A stretch of 64,000 nt of DNA from Poseidonibacter lekithochrous (GTDB taxonomy: Bacteria; Campylobacterota; Campylobacteria; Campylobacterales; Arcobacteraceae), in NCBI RefSeq assembly GCF_013283835.1, contig NZ_CP054052.1, positions 3,100,001-3,164,000 on the forward strand. Direction: 5' to 3'. The translations under genes were made by a program, and so were the position numbers. Of this stretch, positions 4,362-28,621 are shown piece by piece. The number at the start of each line of letters is the position of its first letter. The first letter of the stretch is position 1. The notes beneath the pieces were generated by a model. It searched no databases. It worked only from the letters and a program-made list of their open reading frames with translations, and had not been told where the DNA came from.

Positions 4362-5324
4362 ATGGAAAATATAGATCATACTGAATTAATGGAAGTAGAT
4401 AAAAAACTAAATCCAGCATTTGAGCGAGAAACAGTACTTATGAATATAAAAGATAATTATGGCAAAGGCACTTTCATATGGCATGACTTCGGTAATGGAA
4501 TAGCCCACTCTAAATGTGACTATGTATTAAACAATGATTACAATATCCATATATCTTCAAATATTCCAGGTGCTGTTTTAATTTTTAATTTATCAAATAG
4601 CATTAAATACATCTATAAAAACAACAAAAAATTTACCCTTAAAAAAAATTCTTTTTTAATTGGTCTTTGTTCTGATGAGTTTTATACACAAATGTATTTG
4701 AAAAAAGATACAAGATATAAAGCTATTACTATAGGAATAAAAGAAAAGCTTTTTTTACAACTTGCAAAAAAACTAGAGAAAATTGATGAAAAAATGAAAA
4801 AAGTAAAAGATTCTAACCATTATATAATTGATGGAGGATATATGGATTCTTATCAACTTGATATGTTATCAAACTTTGAAGACTCGCCTATTAATGATAA
4901 TACCTTATCAAATCTACAAGCAGAATCTATAGCTTTAAATCTAACACATCATACTATTAACAAAGTAGTTAAAGAAAATATTTCCAATGAACACTTAGGA
5001 AATGAAAAAATAGAATCATTAGAGCGAGCAAAAGAGATAATTATTAAACACTATGCTTCACCTCTTAGTATAAAAGAGATTGCTTATAAGTCTGCTATTA
5101 ATGAGTGTTATCTAAAAAAAGATTTCAAAATATATTATGGTATGACTATTTATGAAATGCTTCAAAAACAAAGATTAAAAATAGCAAAGGAGTTACTAAA
5201 CGATAATTTCAGTGTAAAAGAGTCATGCTTTGAAGTTGGATACAAACATACTGGTAATTTTAGTAAACTTTTTTATAATCACTATGGTATTTCTCCTAGT
5301 CTTTATAGAAAACAACAACAATAA
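4362..5324 (+). CDS. AraC-family transcriptional regulator, PchR-like
   Basis: A 320-residue protein. The last 100 residues are a double helix-turn-helix of the AraC type: first HTH around SIKEIAYKSAINECYLKKDF, second around VKESCFEVGYKHTGNFSKLF, ending in YGISPSLYRK. The N-terminal 200 residues are a ligand-sensing region without strong identity to sugar-binding AraC. Regulators of this size next to TonB-dependent siderophore receptors are usually PchR-like activators that respond to the ferric siderophore. The next gene, on the same strand, is such a receptor. Direct repeats between them are the likely binding site. RBS GAAGGAT. Confidence 0.8.
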   Translation: MENIDHTELMEVDKKLNPAFERETVLMNIKDNYGKGTFIWHDFGNGIAHSKCDYVLNNDYNIHISSNIPGAVLIFNLSNSIKYIYKNNKKFTLKKNSFLIGLCSDEFYTQMYLKKDTRYKAITIGIKEKLFLQLAKKLEKIDEKMKKVKDSNHYIIDGGYMDSYQLDMLSNFEDSPINDNTLSNLQAESIALNLTHHTINKVVKENISNEHLGNEKIESLERAKEIIIKHYASPLSIKEIAYKSAINECYLKKDFKIYYGMTIYEMLQKQRLKIAKELLNDNFSVKESCFEVGYKHTGNFSKLFYNHYGISPSLYRKQQQ

Positions 5325-5330
5325 ATCATT

Positions 5331-5373
5331 TTCCTTTTCGTAGATAAAATATTCCTTTTCGTGACAGTATAAT
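5331..5373 (+). promoter_or_regulatory. 21-bp spaced direct repeats and -10 element, candidate AraC/PchR site
   Basis: TTCCTTTTCGT occurs twice, at 5331-5341 and 5352-5362. The repeats start exactly 21 bases apart, two turns of the helix, which is the spacing of paired half sites bound by AraC proteins. A consensus TATAAT follows at 5368-5373 with no good -35 in front, as expected for an activator-dependent promoter of the receptor operon. The regulator gene directly upstream is the obvious candidate to bind it. Confidence 0.6.
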
Positions 5374-5429
5374 ATTGATAACCACAATCATTTAATGTAA
5401 CATGTTGGAAATTTTACAAGGAGATGTTT

Positions 5430-7511
5430 ATGAAACATATTCATTTACAAAGACACTTATCAATTACATTAAGTGCATTAATACTTACAAATACAATTAT
5501 GTTAGCAGATGATAAAAAAGAAAATATAAAACTTAATAGCATTGAAATAGTTGAAGATACAAAAACAAAATATCTTTACAATAAGAAGATGAGTGCAAAT
5601 AGAAGTAATATAGAACTAAAAAATACTGCAAAATCAATTCAAATTTTTAATGAAGATTTTATCAAAGATGCAAGTCTTCAAAATATTGAAGATGTAATAA
5701 AATTCTCTTCAAATACTATTTATACAGGAGACAGTCACGGAAGAACTAATCAAATTTCAATGAGAGGGTTTGAAGGAGTTCCTATTTTGATTGATGGACT
5801 AAAAGTAACAAATAAACTTGCCCATCCAGATATTAATAACTTTGAAACAGTAGAAGTACAAAAAGGTCCAGACTCATTACAATATGGAGAATCAAGTCCA
5901 GGAGGAATAGTAAATCTAGTTAAAAAGAAACCTAGTAAAGAATCTATAGGTGAGATTGGTTTTGAATTTAATGACAATACAGCACAAAAAGCAAATATTG
6001 ACTTAGGTGGAAGTTTAAATGAAGAGGACTCTTTATATTATAGACTTGTATCTACTATAAAAAAAGACAAAGGTTATGTAAATAACAATACTGATACAAA
6101 TGGTATTTTCTTAGCTCCTAGTTTAGCTTATGATATAAATGATAATAATACTTTAACTTTTGTTAGTGAATATACAAAAGAGACTTCACCTTCTACCTTT
6201 GGAACATATGTAAATAAACAAGGAGAATTAGTATCTTCATTAGAAAATACTATTTCAAATCCTGATGAAAAATTCAAGAAAACTCAAAAACTTGTAGGTC
6301 TTGATTTAGATAGTACTTTTAATACTTGGAATTCACACTTTAAATATAGATATATTAATTACGTTGGAGATAATGCAGATGTTCATATGCCATTTATGTA
6401 TAATGAAACTACAAATACACTTTCTAGAATCTATGCAAAACAAAAACAAAAGTTCCAAGAACATGCTTTACAATATACAGTAAATAAAAAACTAAATATT
6501 TTAAATCTAGATCATAATATTACCCTTGGAGCTGATTATAATAAAGCCTATTCAAAATTAGATATGTATGCGGATATGGGAACTACTTATAGTATTAATC
6601 TTTCAAATCCTTCTTATGAAGAACTAACAAGATTATCAGACCATAGTTCAGCTAGAGATATGTCAACTGAAAAAACTTATGTTAAATCATGGGGTACATT
6701 CTTACAAGATAGTATAAACTTAAGTGATAGTTTAATATTAAATGCCGGACTAAGATATAGTGAATCAAAACCTAAAACAGGACAAAAAACAGATGCGTAT
6801 ACTCCATCTTTAGGATTGGTTTATCATGTAACGCCTAAAACTATACTATATACAAATTACTCTGAATCATTTAAACCAAATAGTAATAAAGATATAAACA
6901 AAAAAATATTAGATCCTGAAACAGGAAATGGACTTGAATTAGGTATTAAACAAAAATTACTAGATGACAAATTTAACTTAACAGCAGCAGTATTCAAAAT
7001 AAACAAAGAAAATATTGCAAAGCTTGACCCAAATGATGTTACAAACCAATCATATAAAGCAAGTGGAGAACAAGAAAGTAAAGGTTTTGAAATAGATATA
7101 AGTGGAGAAATAACATCAAACTTATCTATTATTGCATCTTATGGATATACAAAAACAAAAGATAAAGATAATGACAATTTGAAACTAACAAATGTTCCAG
7201 AACATACGGCGAATATTTTCACAACATATAATCTTGCCTCATTTAATCTGCCAAGTATACATATTGGTGGAGGAGCTAGATATATAGGAAATAGATATGC
7301 TGATGAAGCAAATAAAATAGAACTTGATTCTGCAATTGTTTATAATGCAAATATTGGATACAAAAAAAATAATTGGAAAGCAAATCTTAGTATTCAAAAT
7401 CTAAGTGATGAGAAATATGTAGATGGAGCCCTTTCAAGCAATGCACGTGGTACAAGAGTATATGCAGGAACTCCTAAAACTGTATATGCAACTATTTCTT
7501 ATGCTTTTTAA
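5430..7511 (+). CDS. TonB-dependent siderophore receptor
   Basis: Outer-membrane receptor of about 693 residues importing a ferric siderophore using TonB energy. It has an N-terminal signal peptide (ends near IMLA-DD) and a plug domain at about 45-165, with the family pattern SIQIFNEDFI, then ISMRGFEG, PILIDGLK, VEVQKGPDSLQYG and SSPGGIVNLV. A 22-strand type barrel follows and ends in an aromatic residue (TISYAF). An ATG six bases upstream is abutted by AAGGAG with no spacing, so the ATG at 5430 (six-base spacing) is the better start. It heads an operon with three accessory membrane proteins and lies behind an AraC regulator. The actual siderophore cannot be read from the sequence. Confidence 0.92.
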   Translation: MKHIHLQRHLSITLSALILTNTIMLADDKKENIKLNSIEIVEDTKTKYLYNKKMSANRSNIELKNTAKSIQIFNEDFIKDASLQNIEDVIKFSSNTIYTGDSHGRTNQISMRGFEGVPILIDGLKVTNKLAHPDINNFETVEVQKGPDSLQYGESSPGGIVNLVKKKPSKESIGEIGFEFNDNTAQKANIDLGGSLNEEDSLYYRLVSTIKKDKGYVNNNTDTNGIFLAPSLAYDINDNNTLTFVSEYTKETSPSTFGTYVNKQGELVSSLENTISNPDEKFKKTQKLVGLDLDSTFNTWNSHFKYRYINYVGDNADVHMPFMYNETTNTLSRIYAKQKQKFQEHALQYTVNKKLNILNLDHNITLGADYNKAYSKLDMYADMGTTYSINLSNPSYEELTRLSDHSSARDMSTEKTYVKSWGTFLQDSINLSDSLILNAGLRYSESKPKTGQKTDAYTPSLGLVYHVTPKTILYTNYSESFKPNSNKDINKKILDPETGNGLELGIKQKLLDDKFNLTAAVFKINKENIAKLDPNDVTNQSYKASGEQESKGFEIDISGEITSNLSIIASYGYTKTKDKDNDNLKLTNVPEHTANIFTTYNLASFNLPSIHIGGGARYIGNRYADEANKIELDSAIVYNANIGYKKNNWKANLSIQNLSDEKYVDGALSSNARGTRVYAGTPKTVYATISYAF

Positions 7512-23774: not shown

Positions 23775-24779
23775 ATGAATAAGGCATTTGATTTTAACCC
23801 ATATGAAGCATTAAAATCAATACTAGAAGCAACATCCTTACATATAGGAAAAGATTTTATAAAATCTGCTGCTGATGAAATTAAAAAACTATATAAAGCT
23901 GATTTAGTATTTATCACTAAAGCTGTTAATTTTAATCCAACTACAAAAGTTGAAGTATTATATGCAACTAACAAAAATATACCAAAAGAATTTGAATTAG
24001 TTGGCACGCCTTGTGAATTAGTATTTCAAAACAAAATTGTAGAAATTCATGAAAATGTAAATAAGGATTTTTATAAAGAAAGAAATTCAGGCTTTGAAAG
24101 CTTTTATGGTGTTCCAATAAATAATGATGGAAATGAATGTATTGGACATATTTCAATATTCTCAAAAGAAAAAAGAAAATTAGCAAAAGAACTTGAAGAT
24201 ATAGCATTGATTTATTCACGTAAAATTGAGCGAGAAATCTTTAGATTAGAACTTGAAATAGAAAATGACAAGATTAGAGAAGAGTTGGAAAAGCTTACAA
24301 TTACTGACCCCTTAACTAATACTTACAATAGACGACACTTTATTAATTCATGTTCTGATTTATTCCAACAAGTAAAAAGATGTAGTATAAAAGCCACACT
24401 TGCTTATATAGATATTGATGACTTTAAAAATATTAATGATAAGTTTGGACATGATGGTGGAGATAAAGTATTAACTGAATTCTCTAATATCTTAAAAGAT
24501 CAAACAAGAAATGGAATTGATAAGATTTATAGAATTGGAGGAGAAGAGTTTTGTATTCTTAGTATAAATGCAACTTTAGATTCTACATATTTACATCTAA
24601 ATAGACTTATGAATACTTCAAATACATACTTTGAAAATAGTCAATATGGAAAAATCACATTAAGTGTTGGATTAGTTGAATTTACAAAAGAGCTTGAGAA
24701 TTTTAATGATTTAGTAAACATAGCAGATAAGAAAATGTATCAAGCTAAAAAGAATGGAAAAAATACAATTGTAAAATAA
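23775..24779 (+). CDS. Diguanylate cyclase with N-terminal GAF domain
   Basis: A 334-residue cytosolic protein. Residues about 15-150 look like a GAF sensor domain, followed by a short coiled coil. The GGDEF domain occupies about 170-334, with the start motif TDPLTNTYNRRHF and the active signature GGEEF at 255-259. It can therefore be expected to make cyclic di-GMP. No RxxD inhibitory site is placed before the signature. It is a single gene and ends five bases from the end of the LuxQ-like kinase on the opposite strand. That adjacency makes a link between AI-2 sensing and cyclic di-GMP conceivable but unproven. Confidence 0.9.
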   Translation: MNKAFDFNPYEALKSILEATSLHIGKDFIKSAADEIKKLYKADLVFITKAVNFNPTTKVEVLYATNKNIPKEFELVGTPCELVFQNKIVEIHENVNKDFYKERNSGFESFYGVPINNDGNECIGHISIFSKEKRKLAKELEDIALIYSRKIEREIFRLELEIENDKIREELEKLTITDPLTNTYNRRHFINSCSDLFQQVKRCSIKATLAYIDIDDFKNINDKFGHDGGDKVLTEFSNILKDQTRNGIDKIYRIGGEEFCILSINATLDSTYLHLNRLMNTSNTYFENSQYGKITLSVGLVEFTKELENFNDLVNIADKKMYQAKKNGKNTIVK

Positions 24780-24784
24780 AGATA

Positions 24785-26911
24785 CTAAAGAGGTATCTCT
24801 ATTTTAAACTCTTCACCTTTAAAGTTTTTATCTTCATATTCATACTCTATAGTTTTATTTGATAACTTACCATTAAAGTGTTTTTTAATTATTTCATTAG
24901 ACATGTATAATCCCAAACCAGTACCTTGGCTTTGATGTTTTGTTGTAAAATAAGGTTCATATATCTTTTCTGCAAGCTCTTCATCTATTCCACCTGCATT
25001 ATCATAAATACTTAGCGTTAAGACTTTATCTTTTACATCTGTTTTCATAAAGATATAATTCTCTTCTTTGTCCATAATACTTTTTTCACTTAAAGCATCT
25101 TTTGAATTATTTATTATATTTATTACAACTTGCATTAATTCAAATTTATAACCACTTATATAAATATCATCTAAATTTAGTATTAAATTAATATTGTTTG
25201 ATTTATATGATGATTCAAAAATTACTAAATTTTCTTTAATAGCTTCACAAACAGAAAAGTTTTCAATCTCATTATTAGGATTAAAGAAATATCTAAATTT
25301 ATCAATAATTGAAGATAGATAATCTACAGTTCCTAATAATTTATCTATATCTTTAATAGTTGCATTTTTATCTAAAGTATTTAGTTGTAATTGCATACTA
25401 ATAGTTGATGCGATTACACTAATTACTGTTAGAGGTTGTCTCCATTGATGTGCAATATTACCGATCATTTCTCCCATTGAAGCAAGCTTTGATTGTTGAT
25501 ATAACATTCTTTCTTTTTGTTGATTTTCTTCTTGAAGTACAACTAAATCATTAATATTTGTATGGAATCCTGTAAACCTACTTTGATGTTTTTTTGAATC
25601 ATAAAATAATTTACCTCTTATTTTAATCCACATAAAAGAGCCATTTTTACATTTAAATCTATATTCACTTTCAAATACTTCTGTTTTACCAGATAAATGT
25701 TCTTTTAAAGCAATCATTGTTTTTTCATAATCATCTTTATGAATACTTTTTTGCCAGAAACTTTTGTAAGTTTTAATATCATGGCTTGAATAACCTAACA
25801 TTGTTAAAAATCTTGGAGAGTAAAATATCTTCTTATTTTTTAAGTCAACATCCCATAATCCATCTTGAACACCATCAATAGCCCTAGAGTATTGTTCTTT
25901 CACATCTCTAAGTTCTGAGATAATTCCTTTTAATTCATAAGCAAATTTATCAAATTCTAAAACTTTTGTGTTTTCATATCTAATACTTTTATCATCTTTG
26001 ACTTTATATGCATAATTAAGAAGTTTAGAGAAAGGCTTAATAATAAACTTGTTTGATAAATAATATAAAAGTATAAAACAAAAAATTAGGAAAAGTAAAA
26101 GAACAAATGCTTGATGAAGAAAAGATTCTTTTAAAACATCAAAAGAATTATTTTTAGTAACATATATGATATTTAAAGATTTGTTTTCAAAAATTTCATA
26201 CCACATACTTGAATATATTGTTCTATCTCCTATATCAACACTATTATGATAAAACCTACTTAAATCAATTGCTATATTTTTTTGCGTAGAAGCAATAATA
26301 TTATTATCAAAAAATATATGCATATCAACCTGTTTTGACTTACTTTTTATATCATTAAGTAAAGCAAAATTATTATTCAATATTTTTGCAGCATAAATTA
26401 CAGCTTGTACTCTACCTGTATTATTGTCAATGATTTGTTTTGTACTTATCATTAAAACAATGTCTTCATTATTAACTTTTATATTAATAATTTTATGATT
26501 AATTGACGATTTTATCTTTCTAATTTCATCTATTATAGATTCTGTATCAAATAAAGAATTACTATAATCGTAAACTTCATTGTTCTTTTTAAAAAAAAGT
26601 AAATCAATACTATCTATATAAGATAAGGTTTCAATTTTATAAGAAATAGAATCAGGATTATTTAGATCATTGATATTTTCAAACTCTTTAGATATTTTTG
26701 ATACGATATTATCTAGATTATTTTGTTCATTCTCAATTATTAGTTTAGTAATATTGTAAGTTTGTTTGAAGTAGTCATCAATATTTTTGTCTACTACTTT
26801 TTGAGTATTAATATATGTAGAAAAAAGTACCGCAATACTTAATACAATAAAAAATACTAAAAGTAGTAAACTATTTAATAAAGATAAAGATAATTTTTTA
26901 TTTGTCATCAT
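24785..26911 (-). CDS. LuxQ-like sensor histidine kinase (AI-2 sensor partner)
   Basis: A 708-residue inner-membrane kinase. Helix 1 spans about 12-33, a periplasmic domain about 34-262, and helix 2 about 266-286. A linker and a PAS domain (about 340-460, ending FTGFHTNINDL) follow, then the His box IAHQWRQPL with His488 and an ATPase domain (DNAGGIDEE, GTGLGLYMSNEII). The periplasmic part carries LNNNFALLNDIKSKSKQVD (178-196), very like the corresponding stretch of Vibrio LuxQ and preceded by the similar IDNNTGRVQAV, so it is a LuxQ-type periplasmic domain. The cytoplasmic half is instead the local Campylobacterota kinase type and has no receiver domain. It overlaps the luxP-like gene by 14 bases. 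Homology was judged by eye. Confidence 0.8.
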   Translation of the reverse strand: MMTNKKLSLSLLNSLLLLVFFIVLSIAVLFSTYINTQKVVDKNIDDYFKQTYNITKLIIENEQNNLDNIVSKISKEFENINDLNNPDSISYKIETLSYIDSIDLLFFKKNNEVYDYSNSLFDTESIIDEIRKIKSSINHKIINIKVNNEDIVLMISTKQIIDNNTGRVQAVIYAAKILNNNFALLNDIKSKSKQVDMHIFFDNNIIASTQKNIAIDLSRFYHNSVDIGDRTIYSSMWYEIFENKSLNIIYVTKNNSFDVLKESFLHQAFVLLLFLIFCFILLYYLSNKFIIKPFSKLLNYAYKVKDDKSIRYENTKVLEFDKFAYELKGIISELRDVKEQYSRAIDGVQDGLWDVDLKNKKIFYSPRFLTMLGYSSHDIKTYKSFWQKSIHKDDYEKTMIALKEHLSGKTEVFESEYRFKCKNGSFMWIKIRGKLFYDSKKHQSRFTGFHTNINDLVVLQEENQQKERMLYQQSKLASMGEMIGNIAHQWRQPLTVISVIASTISMQLQLNTLDKNATIKDIDKLLGTVDYLSSIIDKFRYFFNPNNEIENFSVCEAIKENLVIFESSYKSNNINLILNLDDIYISGYKFELMQVVINIINNSKDALSEKSIMDKEENYIFMKTDVKDKVLTLSIYDNAGGIDEELAEKIYEPYFTTKHQSQGTGLGLYMSNEIIKKHFNGKLSNKTIEYEYEDKNFKGEEFKIEIPL

Positions 26912-27998
26912 CAGATGTATACCTGAATGCCCTTTTTTTAAGTTTTTCTAGTTCTTCTTGTTTTATTCCTCTCTCAACAAGAGCAAAATCCCCTGAAAAG
27001 ATTGTTGGTATTTTATCTCTTCTGTTTTCTAAATCAAGCTTAATACCTTCAGCCATAGCAACACCATTATCATCATTCATTCTCATAACAGTTACATCCA
27101 TAAAGCCATCTTGAATAGCTTTTAATTCGCTATTTCCACCGCCCCATCCATTTACTAAAACTTTTCCTACTAAATTTTTTTCCTTAAGTGCTTCTACTAC
27201 ACCTAAGGCAATATCAGTTGAGCAAGCATAAATAAATTTTACATCTGGATCAATTTTAAGTAAATCTAATGTTGCTAATCTAGCTTTGTCTTTACTTGTA
27301 TTTGTATAATATTCATGTACTACTTTTAAGTCTGAATTCTTTGATACATAATCAATAAATTTTGTACCTCTCATATATCCAATATAACCATTTGATGTAT
27401 ATAAAACGGCATATTTACCTTTTCCTTTTGTTTTTTTGATATAGTAATTAGCTAACATTTGACTACCTAGCATATGATCAAATCCTACATATAAAAAAGG
27501 TTGGTCTTTTTGCCATTTTCGTAAAGGTGTTGTGATATTTTGAAGAATTAATTTTGGTTTTTCTCTACTCATAATTCTTTCAATGAATTTAGCGTGTTTA
27601 CTAGCATCTAATACAAATACTAAATAATCTGTATTATCTTTGATAGCTTTTAAAAGTAGTTTTGATTGAACTCTTGTTTCAACGTGAGGTTTTGTGAAAT
27701 GAAGAACTAACTCATAGTTTATTCCAAGTTCATTAAGTCGTTTCTCAAATGAAACTTTACTTTTCATCCAATAGTCAGTTAGTTGTTTACCAGGGTAAAC
27801 TAAAACTATTCTAATTTTCTTATTCTCTTGTTTTATTTTTACTGCATCTTTTTGAATTTGTGCAATAAAATCATTACTTATTTTCTCTTGATTAGTAAAT
27901 TCTATATACTCATCAATAGCAAAATAGTCTGAATTACCTGCATTCAAAATATTGAATGCACACATTAAAATAATTAATTTGAAAATGTAATGTTTCAT
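26898..27998 (-). CDS. luxP: LuxP-like periplasmic autoinducer-2 binding protein
   Basis: A 366-residue periplasmic binding protein with a signal peptide (cleavage near LNA-GNS). Blocks match Vibrio harveyi LuxP closely: VYPGKQLTDYW, LILQNITTP, QPFLYVGFDH, FIYACSTDIALG, NGWGGG, DVTVMRMNDD and KKRAFRY at the end. The residues I recall as AI-2 contacts in LuxP are all kept at a constant offset except one: Gln72, Thr74 (Ser in Vibrio), Trp77, Asn154, Arg210, Thr261, Asp262, Trp285 and Arg306. The ATG at 27998 has AGGTGG upstream. The longer GTG start would lie inside that site. It is followed by the LuxQ-like kinase. Confidence 0.88.
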   Translation of the reverse strand: MKHYIFKLIILMCAFNILNAGNSDYFAIDEYIEFTNQEKISNDFIAQIQKDAVKIKQENKKIRIVLVYPGKQLTDYWMKSKVSFEKRLNELGINYELVLHFTKPHVETRVQSKLLLKAIKDNTDYLVFVLDASKHAKFIERIMSREKPKLILQNITTPLRKWQKDQPFLYVGFDHMLGSQMLANYYIKKTKGKGKYAVLYTSNGYIGYMRGTKFIDYVSKNSDLKVVHEYYTNTSKDKARLATLDLLKIDPDVKFIYACSTDIALGVVEALKEKNLVGKVLVNGWGGGNSELKAIQDGFMDVTVMRMNDDNGVAMAEGIKLDLENRRDKIPTIFSGDFALVERGIKQEELEKLKKRAFRYTSDDDK

Positions 27999-28078
27999 GG
28001 GAGCCACCTATTTTTAAGTTAAATTCCAATTATTATAACATAACAAATTAATTTTCTTAACGATTAATAATAAAGCCT

Positions 28079-28621
28079 TTATTTTACTAGGCTAGATATT
28101 TGCTTAAATACTGGATTTTTTGCGTTAACTGTTAGCTCAAATAAAATTGACTCATAAGTAGTAGGAATTACTCCTGCTTGAATTAATCTCTCCAGTGCCA
28201 TATCTGTATCTTTTTGTTTTCTTGAAGTTACACAATCTGTAACTAATACAGGTTGTAATCCAGCTTCTAATAAATCAATACAAGTTTGTAAAACACAAAC
28301 ATGAGTTTCAATACCAGCAACAATTACTACTTTTTTTCCTGCATTTTTAATAGCTTCCATAGTTGGTTCATTTTTACAACAAGAAAAAGTAGTTTTCTCA
28401 AAGTGAGGATCAGGATCAACAAATTCTCGTAAACTTGGGATTGTTTCCCCAATTCCTTTTTTATATTGTTCATTTACAATAAATGGAACTTCTAAAGTCT
28501 TAAGACCTTTTACTAATGTTACTAAGTTTTTCTCGATTTCATCTTTGTTTGTCATATAAGGGTAAAGTCTATCTTGTACATCAACTAAACAAAATAGTGT
28601 TTCTTCCACATTAATTCTCAT
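28079..28621 (-). CDS. Isochorismatase-family cysteine hydrolase
   Basis: A 180-residue hydrolase of the isochorismatase/nicotinamidase superfamily. The catalytic triad is visible: Asp in CLVDVQDRL, Lys in FEKTTFSCC and Cys in GIETHVCVLQT. Small stand-alone members include YcaC-like proteins of uncertain substrate. Nothing in the sequence selects nicotinamide or isochorismate. It is transcribed towards the luxP-like gene from about 80 bases away and may or may not share a transcript. A second, dissimilar member of the same superfamily lies at 53518-54078. Confidence 0.85.
   Translation of the reverse strand: MRINVEETLFCLVDVQDRLYPYMTNKDEIEKNLVTLVKGLKTLEVPFIVNEQYKKGIGETIPSLREFVDPDPHFEKTTFSCCKNEPTMEAIKNAGKKVVIVAGIETHVCVLQTCIDLLEAGLQPVLVTDCVTSRKQKDTDMALERLIQAGVIPTTYESILFELTVNAKNPVFKQISSLVK

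Follow-up and report, generated by a model that had tools for sequence, protein, structure and literature searches.

Two adjoining genes on the minus strand of the Poseidonibacter lekithochrous window (the whole stretch of 64,000 nucleotides analysed here) constitute, with a probability of about 0.87, an autoinducer-2 (AI-2) receptor pair of the LuxPQ family, in which AI-2 sensed by LuxP would switch a non-hybrid histidine kinase. Judged from the sequences, the receptor very probably senses AI-2 in the Vibrio manner, and the form of AI-2 that it binds is probably the furanosyl borate diester. Within the open-access literature, no earlier description of LuxPQ in Campylobacterota came to light; two papers there that mention both LuxP and Arcobacter do not, judged by title and abstract, concern an Arcobacter LuxP.

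The luxPQ locus and the predicted AI-2 pocket

The luxP-like gene (26898..27998, minus strand) encodes a predicted periplasmic AI-2-binding protein with an N-terminal signal peptide, as assigned from phmmer, contact residues, tree position and the start with its ribosome-binding site. The luxQ-like gene (24785..26911, minus strand), which encodes a membrane histidine kinase according to Pfam, NCBIfam and transmembrane (TM) prediction, lies directly downstream, its start overlapping the end of luxP by 14 nt, and the same luxP-luxQ order was found in relatives. The mechanical luxP start is GTG 28007; because this codon falls within the likely ribosome-binding site AGGTGG, upstream of an alternative ATG at 27998, the ATG is the better start, as the first-pass annotation had assumed. 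The pair is flanked on the luxP side by an isochorismatase-family gene on the same, minus strand (28079-28621) and on the luxQ side by a GAF-GGDEF gene on the opposite strand (23775-24779). A possible luxPQ promoter just upstream of the luxP ATG (28032..28060, minus strand; TTAAGA-17-TATAAT with TG) is a consensus match, in a region where a promoter scan gave promoter-like sites at chance level. An Rfam scan of the window gave no matches.

Among all PDB sequences, the best phmmer match of the luxP product was Vibrio (V. harveyi) LuxP (E 8e-99, 334 bits, residues 28-365), and the next family, a ribose-type sugar-binding protein, reached 54 bits. The identity was 44.5% to V. campbellii LuxP, compared with 22.7% to E. 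coli RbsB and 24.7% to AlsB. A maximum-likelihood tree placed the LuxP rows and two nearer Alphaproteobacterial binding proteins apart from RbsB, AlsB, LsrB and TorT (SH-aLRT 99), and separation alone was used because these outgroups are on very long branches. The LuxP identity first proposed for this protein was thus borne out by both the bit scores and its grouping with Vibrio LuxP, not RbsB. The window protein fell into a nine-row Campylobacterota clade (support 98) formed by Arcobacter and same-family genomes, with Arcobacter as its closest relatives, in line with the phylum suggested earlier, and this clade nests in the one that holds the Vibrio LuxP proteins. The tree gave no support for a recent transfer from Vibrio. 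Neither an Arcobacter-plus-Vibrio LuxP clade (AU p 0.26) nor a single origin of all Campylobacterota LuxP proteins (AU p 0.48) was rejected, so that more than one deep branching order of LuxP is compatible with the data.

In the alignment, nine of the ten AI-2 contacts were identical to those of V. campbellii LuxP, the sole change being S79T. Part of this contact list comes from PMC6452917 and PMC3794749, and the other contacts follow the V. harveyi structure. In V. campbellii numbering, with the window equivalents in brackets, they are Q77 (Q72), S79 (T74), W82 (W77), N159 (N154), R215 (R210), S265 (S260), T266 (T261), D267 (D262), W289 (W285) and R310 (R306). The codons of this predicted pocket, placed by alignment and all on the minus strand, lie at 27768..27785 (Q72, T74 and W77), 27537..27539 (N154), 27369..27371 (R210), 27213..27221 (S260, T261 and D262), 27144..27146 (W285) and 27081..27083 (R306). 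All of the contacts listed in the first-pass annotation were kept, S260 in addition, and Ser79 to Thr was likewise the only change it had seen; the numbering offset, which it described as constant, is 5 as far as D262 and drops to 4 for W285 and R306, owing to a one-residue insertion. The exact Vibrio contact pattern was present in 59 of the aligned LuxP sequences and absent from RbsB, AlsB, LsrB and TorT. Arg215 and Arg310 of Vibrio LuxP have been reported to interact with bound AI-2 (PMC3794749).

The substitution S79T, together with the replacement of Ser265 by Thr or Ala and of Gln77 by Glu in some aligned LuxP relatives, would also fit a LuxP-derived protein that senses a related ligand, such as a pentose, another furanone or non-borated AI-2, through the same LuxQ-type kinase, as would the resemblance of the LuxP fold to sugar-binding proteins and the occurrence of distant SBPs (about 30% identity) in ABC transporter operons, one of them beside an annotated autoinducer-2 kinase gene. 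We consider such a change of ligand improbable, as the other contacts, both arginines included, persist in the window protein and, over several phyla, in the majority of the LuxP relatives, and no ABC transporter genes adjoin luxP in the window. In addition, a 2025 iScience survey reports that AI-2 was bound by three LuxP proteins picked at random from Proteobacteria and Deferribacterota (PMC12268683), which also argues for AI-2 as the ligand.

The LuxQ-type sensor and its transmitter

The kinase consists of a TM helix (residues 11-29), a periplasmic sensor of about 240 aa, a second TM helix (268-286), and PAS, HisKA and HATPase domains. The sensor (residues 30-267; 26111..26824, minus strand) was identified as a LuxQ-type domain of double Cache/PAS fold by Pfam family PF09308, by a sequence profile and by fold match. 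PF09308 (LuxQ-periplasm) was matched with an E value of 9.6e-13 and 48.7 bits, against a curated cut-off of 25.7, and no dCache_1 match was found by Pfam in the kinase. The segment NNFALLNDIKSKS (residues 180-192), likened to LuxQ in the first-pass annotation, falls in the motif that is best conserved among the LuxQ-periplasm partners (GGxxLNDNxxLL in the consensus). When a profile built from 46 non-Vibrio sensors was run against all PDB sequences, the only matches were LuxQ of V. cholerae and of V. harveyi. An AlphaFold2 model of residues 1-300 (mean pLDDT 88.9) matched the LuxQ crystal structures with Z scores of 17.9-19.1, compared with 12.4 or less for every other entry listed (other dCache domains), and six LuxQ chains were top-ranked by Foldseek. 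The sensor is divergent, with 16-18% identity to the LuxQ structures; the LuxQ-periplasm assignment is nonetheless supported by profile, sequence and fold alike.

These results bear on a reading in which a binding protein of the ordinary ribose/galactose type adjoins an unrelated dCache kinase and the likeness to LuxPQ is superficial. Such an arrangement is suggested by Peripla_BP_4 being the only Pfam match above cut-off for the luxP product, and by the presence in this genome of a further protein-kinase pair that is truly RbsB-like. The LuxP bit score is six times that of any sugar-binding protein, the tree separates the two, and the sensor profile and fold specifically name LuxQ; phmmer, tree, profile and fold match together ruled this arrangement out, and we give it a negligible probability. 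The E values of 8e-99 for LuxP and 9.6e-13 for PF09308 likewise exclude a chance likeness.

In the cytoplasmic part, PAS_3 and HATPase_c were matched, and HisKA scored 25.5 bits, slightly below its cut-off of 26.9. Pfam and motif reading placed an HQWRQP H-box with the predicted phospho-accepting His488 at 25433..25450 (minus strand), and the ATP-binding motifs DNAGGI (24986-25003) and GTGLGL (24908-24925), both on the minus strand, are intact. No Response_reg match was found in the kinase, which ends after HATPase_c; this non-hybrid architecture had been overlooked at first. The transmitter (residues 461-708) is 48% identical to that of a second kinase of the same genome, one that is paired with an RbsB-like protein, suggesting that a LuxQ-type input module became linked to a transmitter of local type. 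This second pair (L119, 3231-6420; G000:C1, about 1771230-1774419) adjoins molybdate-transport-like genes, and consists of an RbsB-like protein (26% identity to RbsB) and an HQWRQP kinase that bears the related transmitter.

Distribution and relatives of the pair

LuxP was found in 9 of 397 sampled Campylobacterota genomes and, within Arcobacteraceae, the family of the window, in 19 of 104 genomes and 8 of 20 genera. A strong LuxQ-type sensor (200 bits or more) was present in 15 of the 104 family genomes. All 15 carry LuxP, a co-occurrence that supports the predicted binding between LuxP and the sensor. In three of the four LuxP genomes that have no strong sensor, luxP is located at a contig end or close to one; in G441 (L152), a 74% complete genome, luxP stands at the conserved site and is followed directly by prpF, with luxQ missing there. 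The order at this site is murI-dnaX-(a thioredoxin-like gene in most)-hemC-isochorismatase-[luxP-luxQ]-prpF-acnD, with adjoining insertions in some genomes, and two same-genus genomes without luxPQ have only a 127-aa ORF between the isochorismatase gene and prpF. These data point to an ancient presence in Arcobacteraceae, with repeated loss or gain. In one locus (L154, 4939-5798), luxP is split into two ORFs near a contig end, possibly as a decayed copy or an assembly error. A second Campylobacterota LuxP group (L062, L067, L068, L070 and L114) has another genome site and another tree position, and in Sulfurospirillum Kmv13 and UBA6211 the partner of LuxP is a diguanylate cyclase.

A scan of a genome collection yielded 80 loci, from Alpha- and Gammaproteobacteria, Desulfobacterota, Bdellovibrionota, Deferribacterota and Campylobacterota; the initial view of LuxPQ as best known from Vibrionaceae therefore underestimated its spread, pairs being present in several other phyla. 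PF09308 was matched by 70 of 71 sensor sequences (that of the window and 70 genes downstream of luxP relatives), and the Pfam-confirmed outputs of these LuxQ-type sensors include histidine kinases, hybrid kinases, GGDEF, GGDEF-EAL and SpoIIE phosphatase domains. By motif counts, the genes downstream of luxP relatives comprise 36 kinases and 22 GGDEF-bearing genes, one of the latter (L081, Denitrovibrio; separated from luxP by 606 bases and with one TM helix) not being counted as a LuxQ-type partner; a full-length partner was not read at 15 loci, of which several lie at a contig end. It is likely that LuxP and the LuxQ sensor form a widespread modular AI-2 input found in at least five phyla. 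Among Campylobacterota, this input would act on a non-hybrid kinase in Arcobacteraceae and on a diguanylate cyclase in a Sulfurospirillum and a relative, and the LuxU-LuxO relay of Vibrio would be the special case of one lineage.

Several individual loci were also observed. A Desulfococcaceae genome encodes a LuxQ-type sensor fused to a SpoIIE-type phosphatase (L007, 7224-9461), and Vibrio fluvialis luxPQ (L096, 4483-8169) is carried by a record of 83 kb that was typed as a mobilizable (MOBP) plasmid. In Alphaproteobacteria, one ABC transporter operon includes, near an annotated autoinducer-2 kinase gene, a gene for a LuxP-like protein of 30% identity (L097, 4393-5529), possibly an uptake relative of LuxP.

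The spread of LuxP has been described variously. It was found only in Vibrio by Sun et al. in 2004 (PMC524169), was cited in 2018 for Vibrionales and Oceanospirillales (PMC6022435), and was counted in 267 proteins, mainly of Proteobacteria, in the 2025 iScience survey, whose available passages include no case in Campylobacterota (PMC12268683). A 2016 paper on Cache domains counted 115 LuxQ-periplasm proteins, 112 of them kinases, with one in the column of c-di-GMP enzymes (PMC4822843). The Arcobacteraceae pair contrasts with the statement of another 2025 paper that LuxP occurs in Vibrio only (PMC12503165); the same paper notes that the role of AI-2 as a signal between species has been doubted on the ground of the narrow spread of LuxP and LsrB.

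Predicted output and comparison with known systems

A luxS gene, proposed as a check in the first-pass annotation, was found in the same genome (E 6.6e-57). It was equally present in every one of 30 Campylobacterota genomes, of which 9 have LuxP and 21 lack it, and luxS is therefore weak, non-discriminating evidence for AI-2 sensing. In this genome, no standalone Hpt protein of LuxU type was found (the five Hpt matches were all in ORFs of at least 704 aa), no RpoN DNA-binding domain of sigma-54 was found, and no LuxO-type sigma-54 activator was found, the Sigma54_activat matches reaching at most 30 bits as AAA+ cross-matches. Presumably, the latter are ClpA, ClpB, ClpX, ComM and MoxR/NorQ-type ATPases. 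The LuxU-LuxO-Qrr route is thus excluded for this genome as searched, a point that the first-pass annotation had overlooked, and the missing LuxU, sigma-54 and LuxO-type activator indicate a different internal circuit downstream of the receptor.

By analogy with Vibrio, LuxP, periplasmic by homology and signal peptide, would bind AI-2 and sit on the double-Cache sensor of the LuxQ-like kinase, with AI-2 binding switching the latter between kinase and phosphatase states. His488 would then pass its phosphate straight to the receiver of a response regulator encoded at another locus, with no LuxU or LuxO in between, a kinase-to-regulator route that is the simplest inference for the output; no response regulator was identified among the luxPQ neighbours. 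As the transmitter half belongs to a local Campylobacterota type, the Vibrio-like part is the input (LuxP and the sensor domain), and this input is joined to outputs that differ between lineages. Diguanylate cyclase genes adjoin luxPQ in several Arcobacteraceae: the GAF-GGDEF neighbour at 23775-24779 of the window recurs in L002 and, divergently oriented, in L006 (4768-5766), and in L003 an SBP_bac_3-GGDEF gene (4570-5985) stands immediately before luxP. Such neighbours hint at c-di-GMP as an output of luxPQ.

Since luxS is present, the organism would be able to hear its own AI-2 and, in addition, that of other species. The same receptor might instead report mainly the AI-2 of other species (eavesdropping) or the state of the cell's own methyl cycle, not population density. 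This use is possible, though the less likely one: luxS is general (30/30 genomes) while luxPQ is patchy (LuxP in 19/104 family genomes), and many relatives belong to Alphaproteobacteria, a group reported to prefer SahH over LuxS (PMC524169); the producer gene, on the other hand, makes self-sensing possible. The question concerns biological use only, which sequence cannot separate, and either use is compatible with a LuxPQ receptor. Read as such a receptor, the pair with its almost intact pocket is a candidate AI-2 receptor for some luxS-bearing Campylobacterota, shows a way in which AI-2 might work in the absence of LuxU and LuxO, and casts LuxPQ as a swappable input module.

The window pair resembles LuxPQ of V. 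harveyi and V. cholerae in its predicted AI-2-binding periplasmic protein, its matching pocket and the position of this gene just before that of a kinase with a double-Cache sensor. Unlike Vibrio LuxQ, which has a C-terminal receiver domain (as in L096), the window kinase is non-hybrid, with a PAS domain and an HQWRQP-type transmitter, and, unlike in Vibrio, its genome contains no LuxU, sigma-54 or LuxO-type activator. RbsB, AlsB, LsrB and TorT share the periplasmic binding protein fold and differ in pocket residues and tree position; TorT also operates with a kinase, TorS. The LuxP proteins of the 2025 survey likewise extend the family beyond Vibrio; its available text does not mention LuxQ, and, unlike in those passages, LuxP is described here in Campylobacterota, with its partner and output analysed (PMC12268683). 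The dCache_1 (CahR-type) receptors, reported in AI-2-sensing kinases and chemoreceptors of Campylobacterota, also combine a Cache-fold periplasmic sensor with the AI-2 signal (PMC12503165); they bind AI-2 directly, whereas here a separate LuxP is predicted to bind the ligand and the sensor belongs to the LuxQ family.
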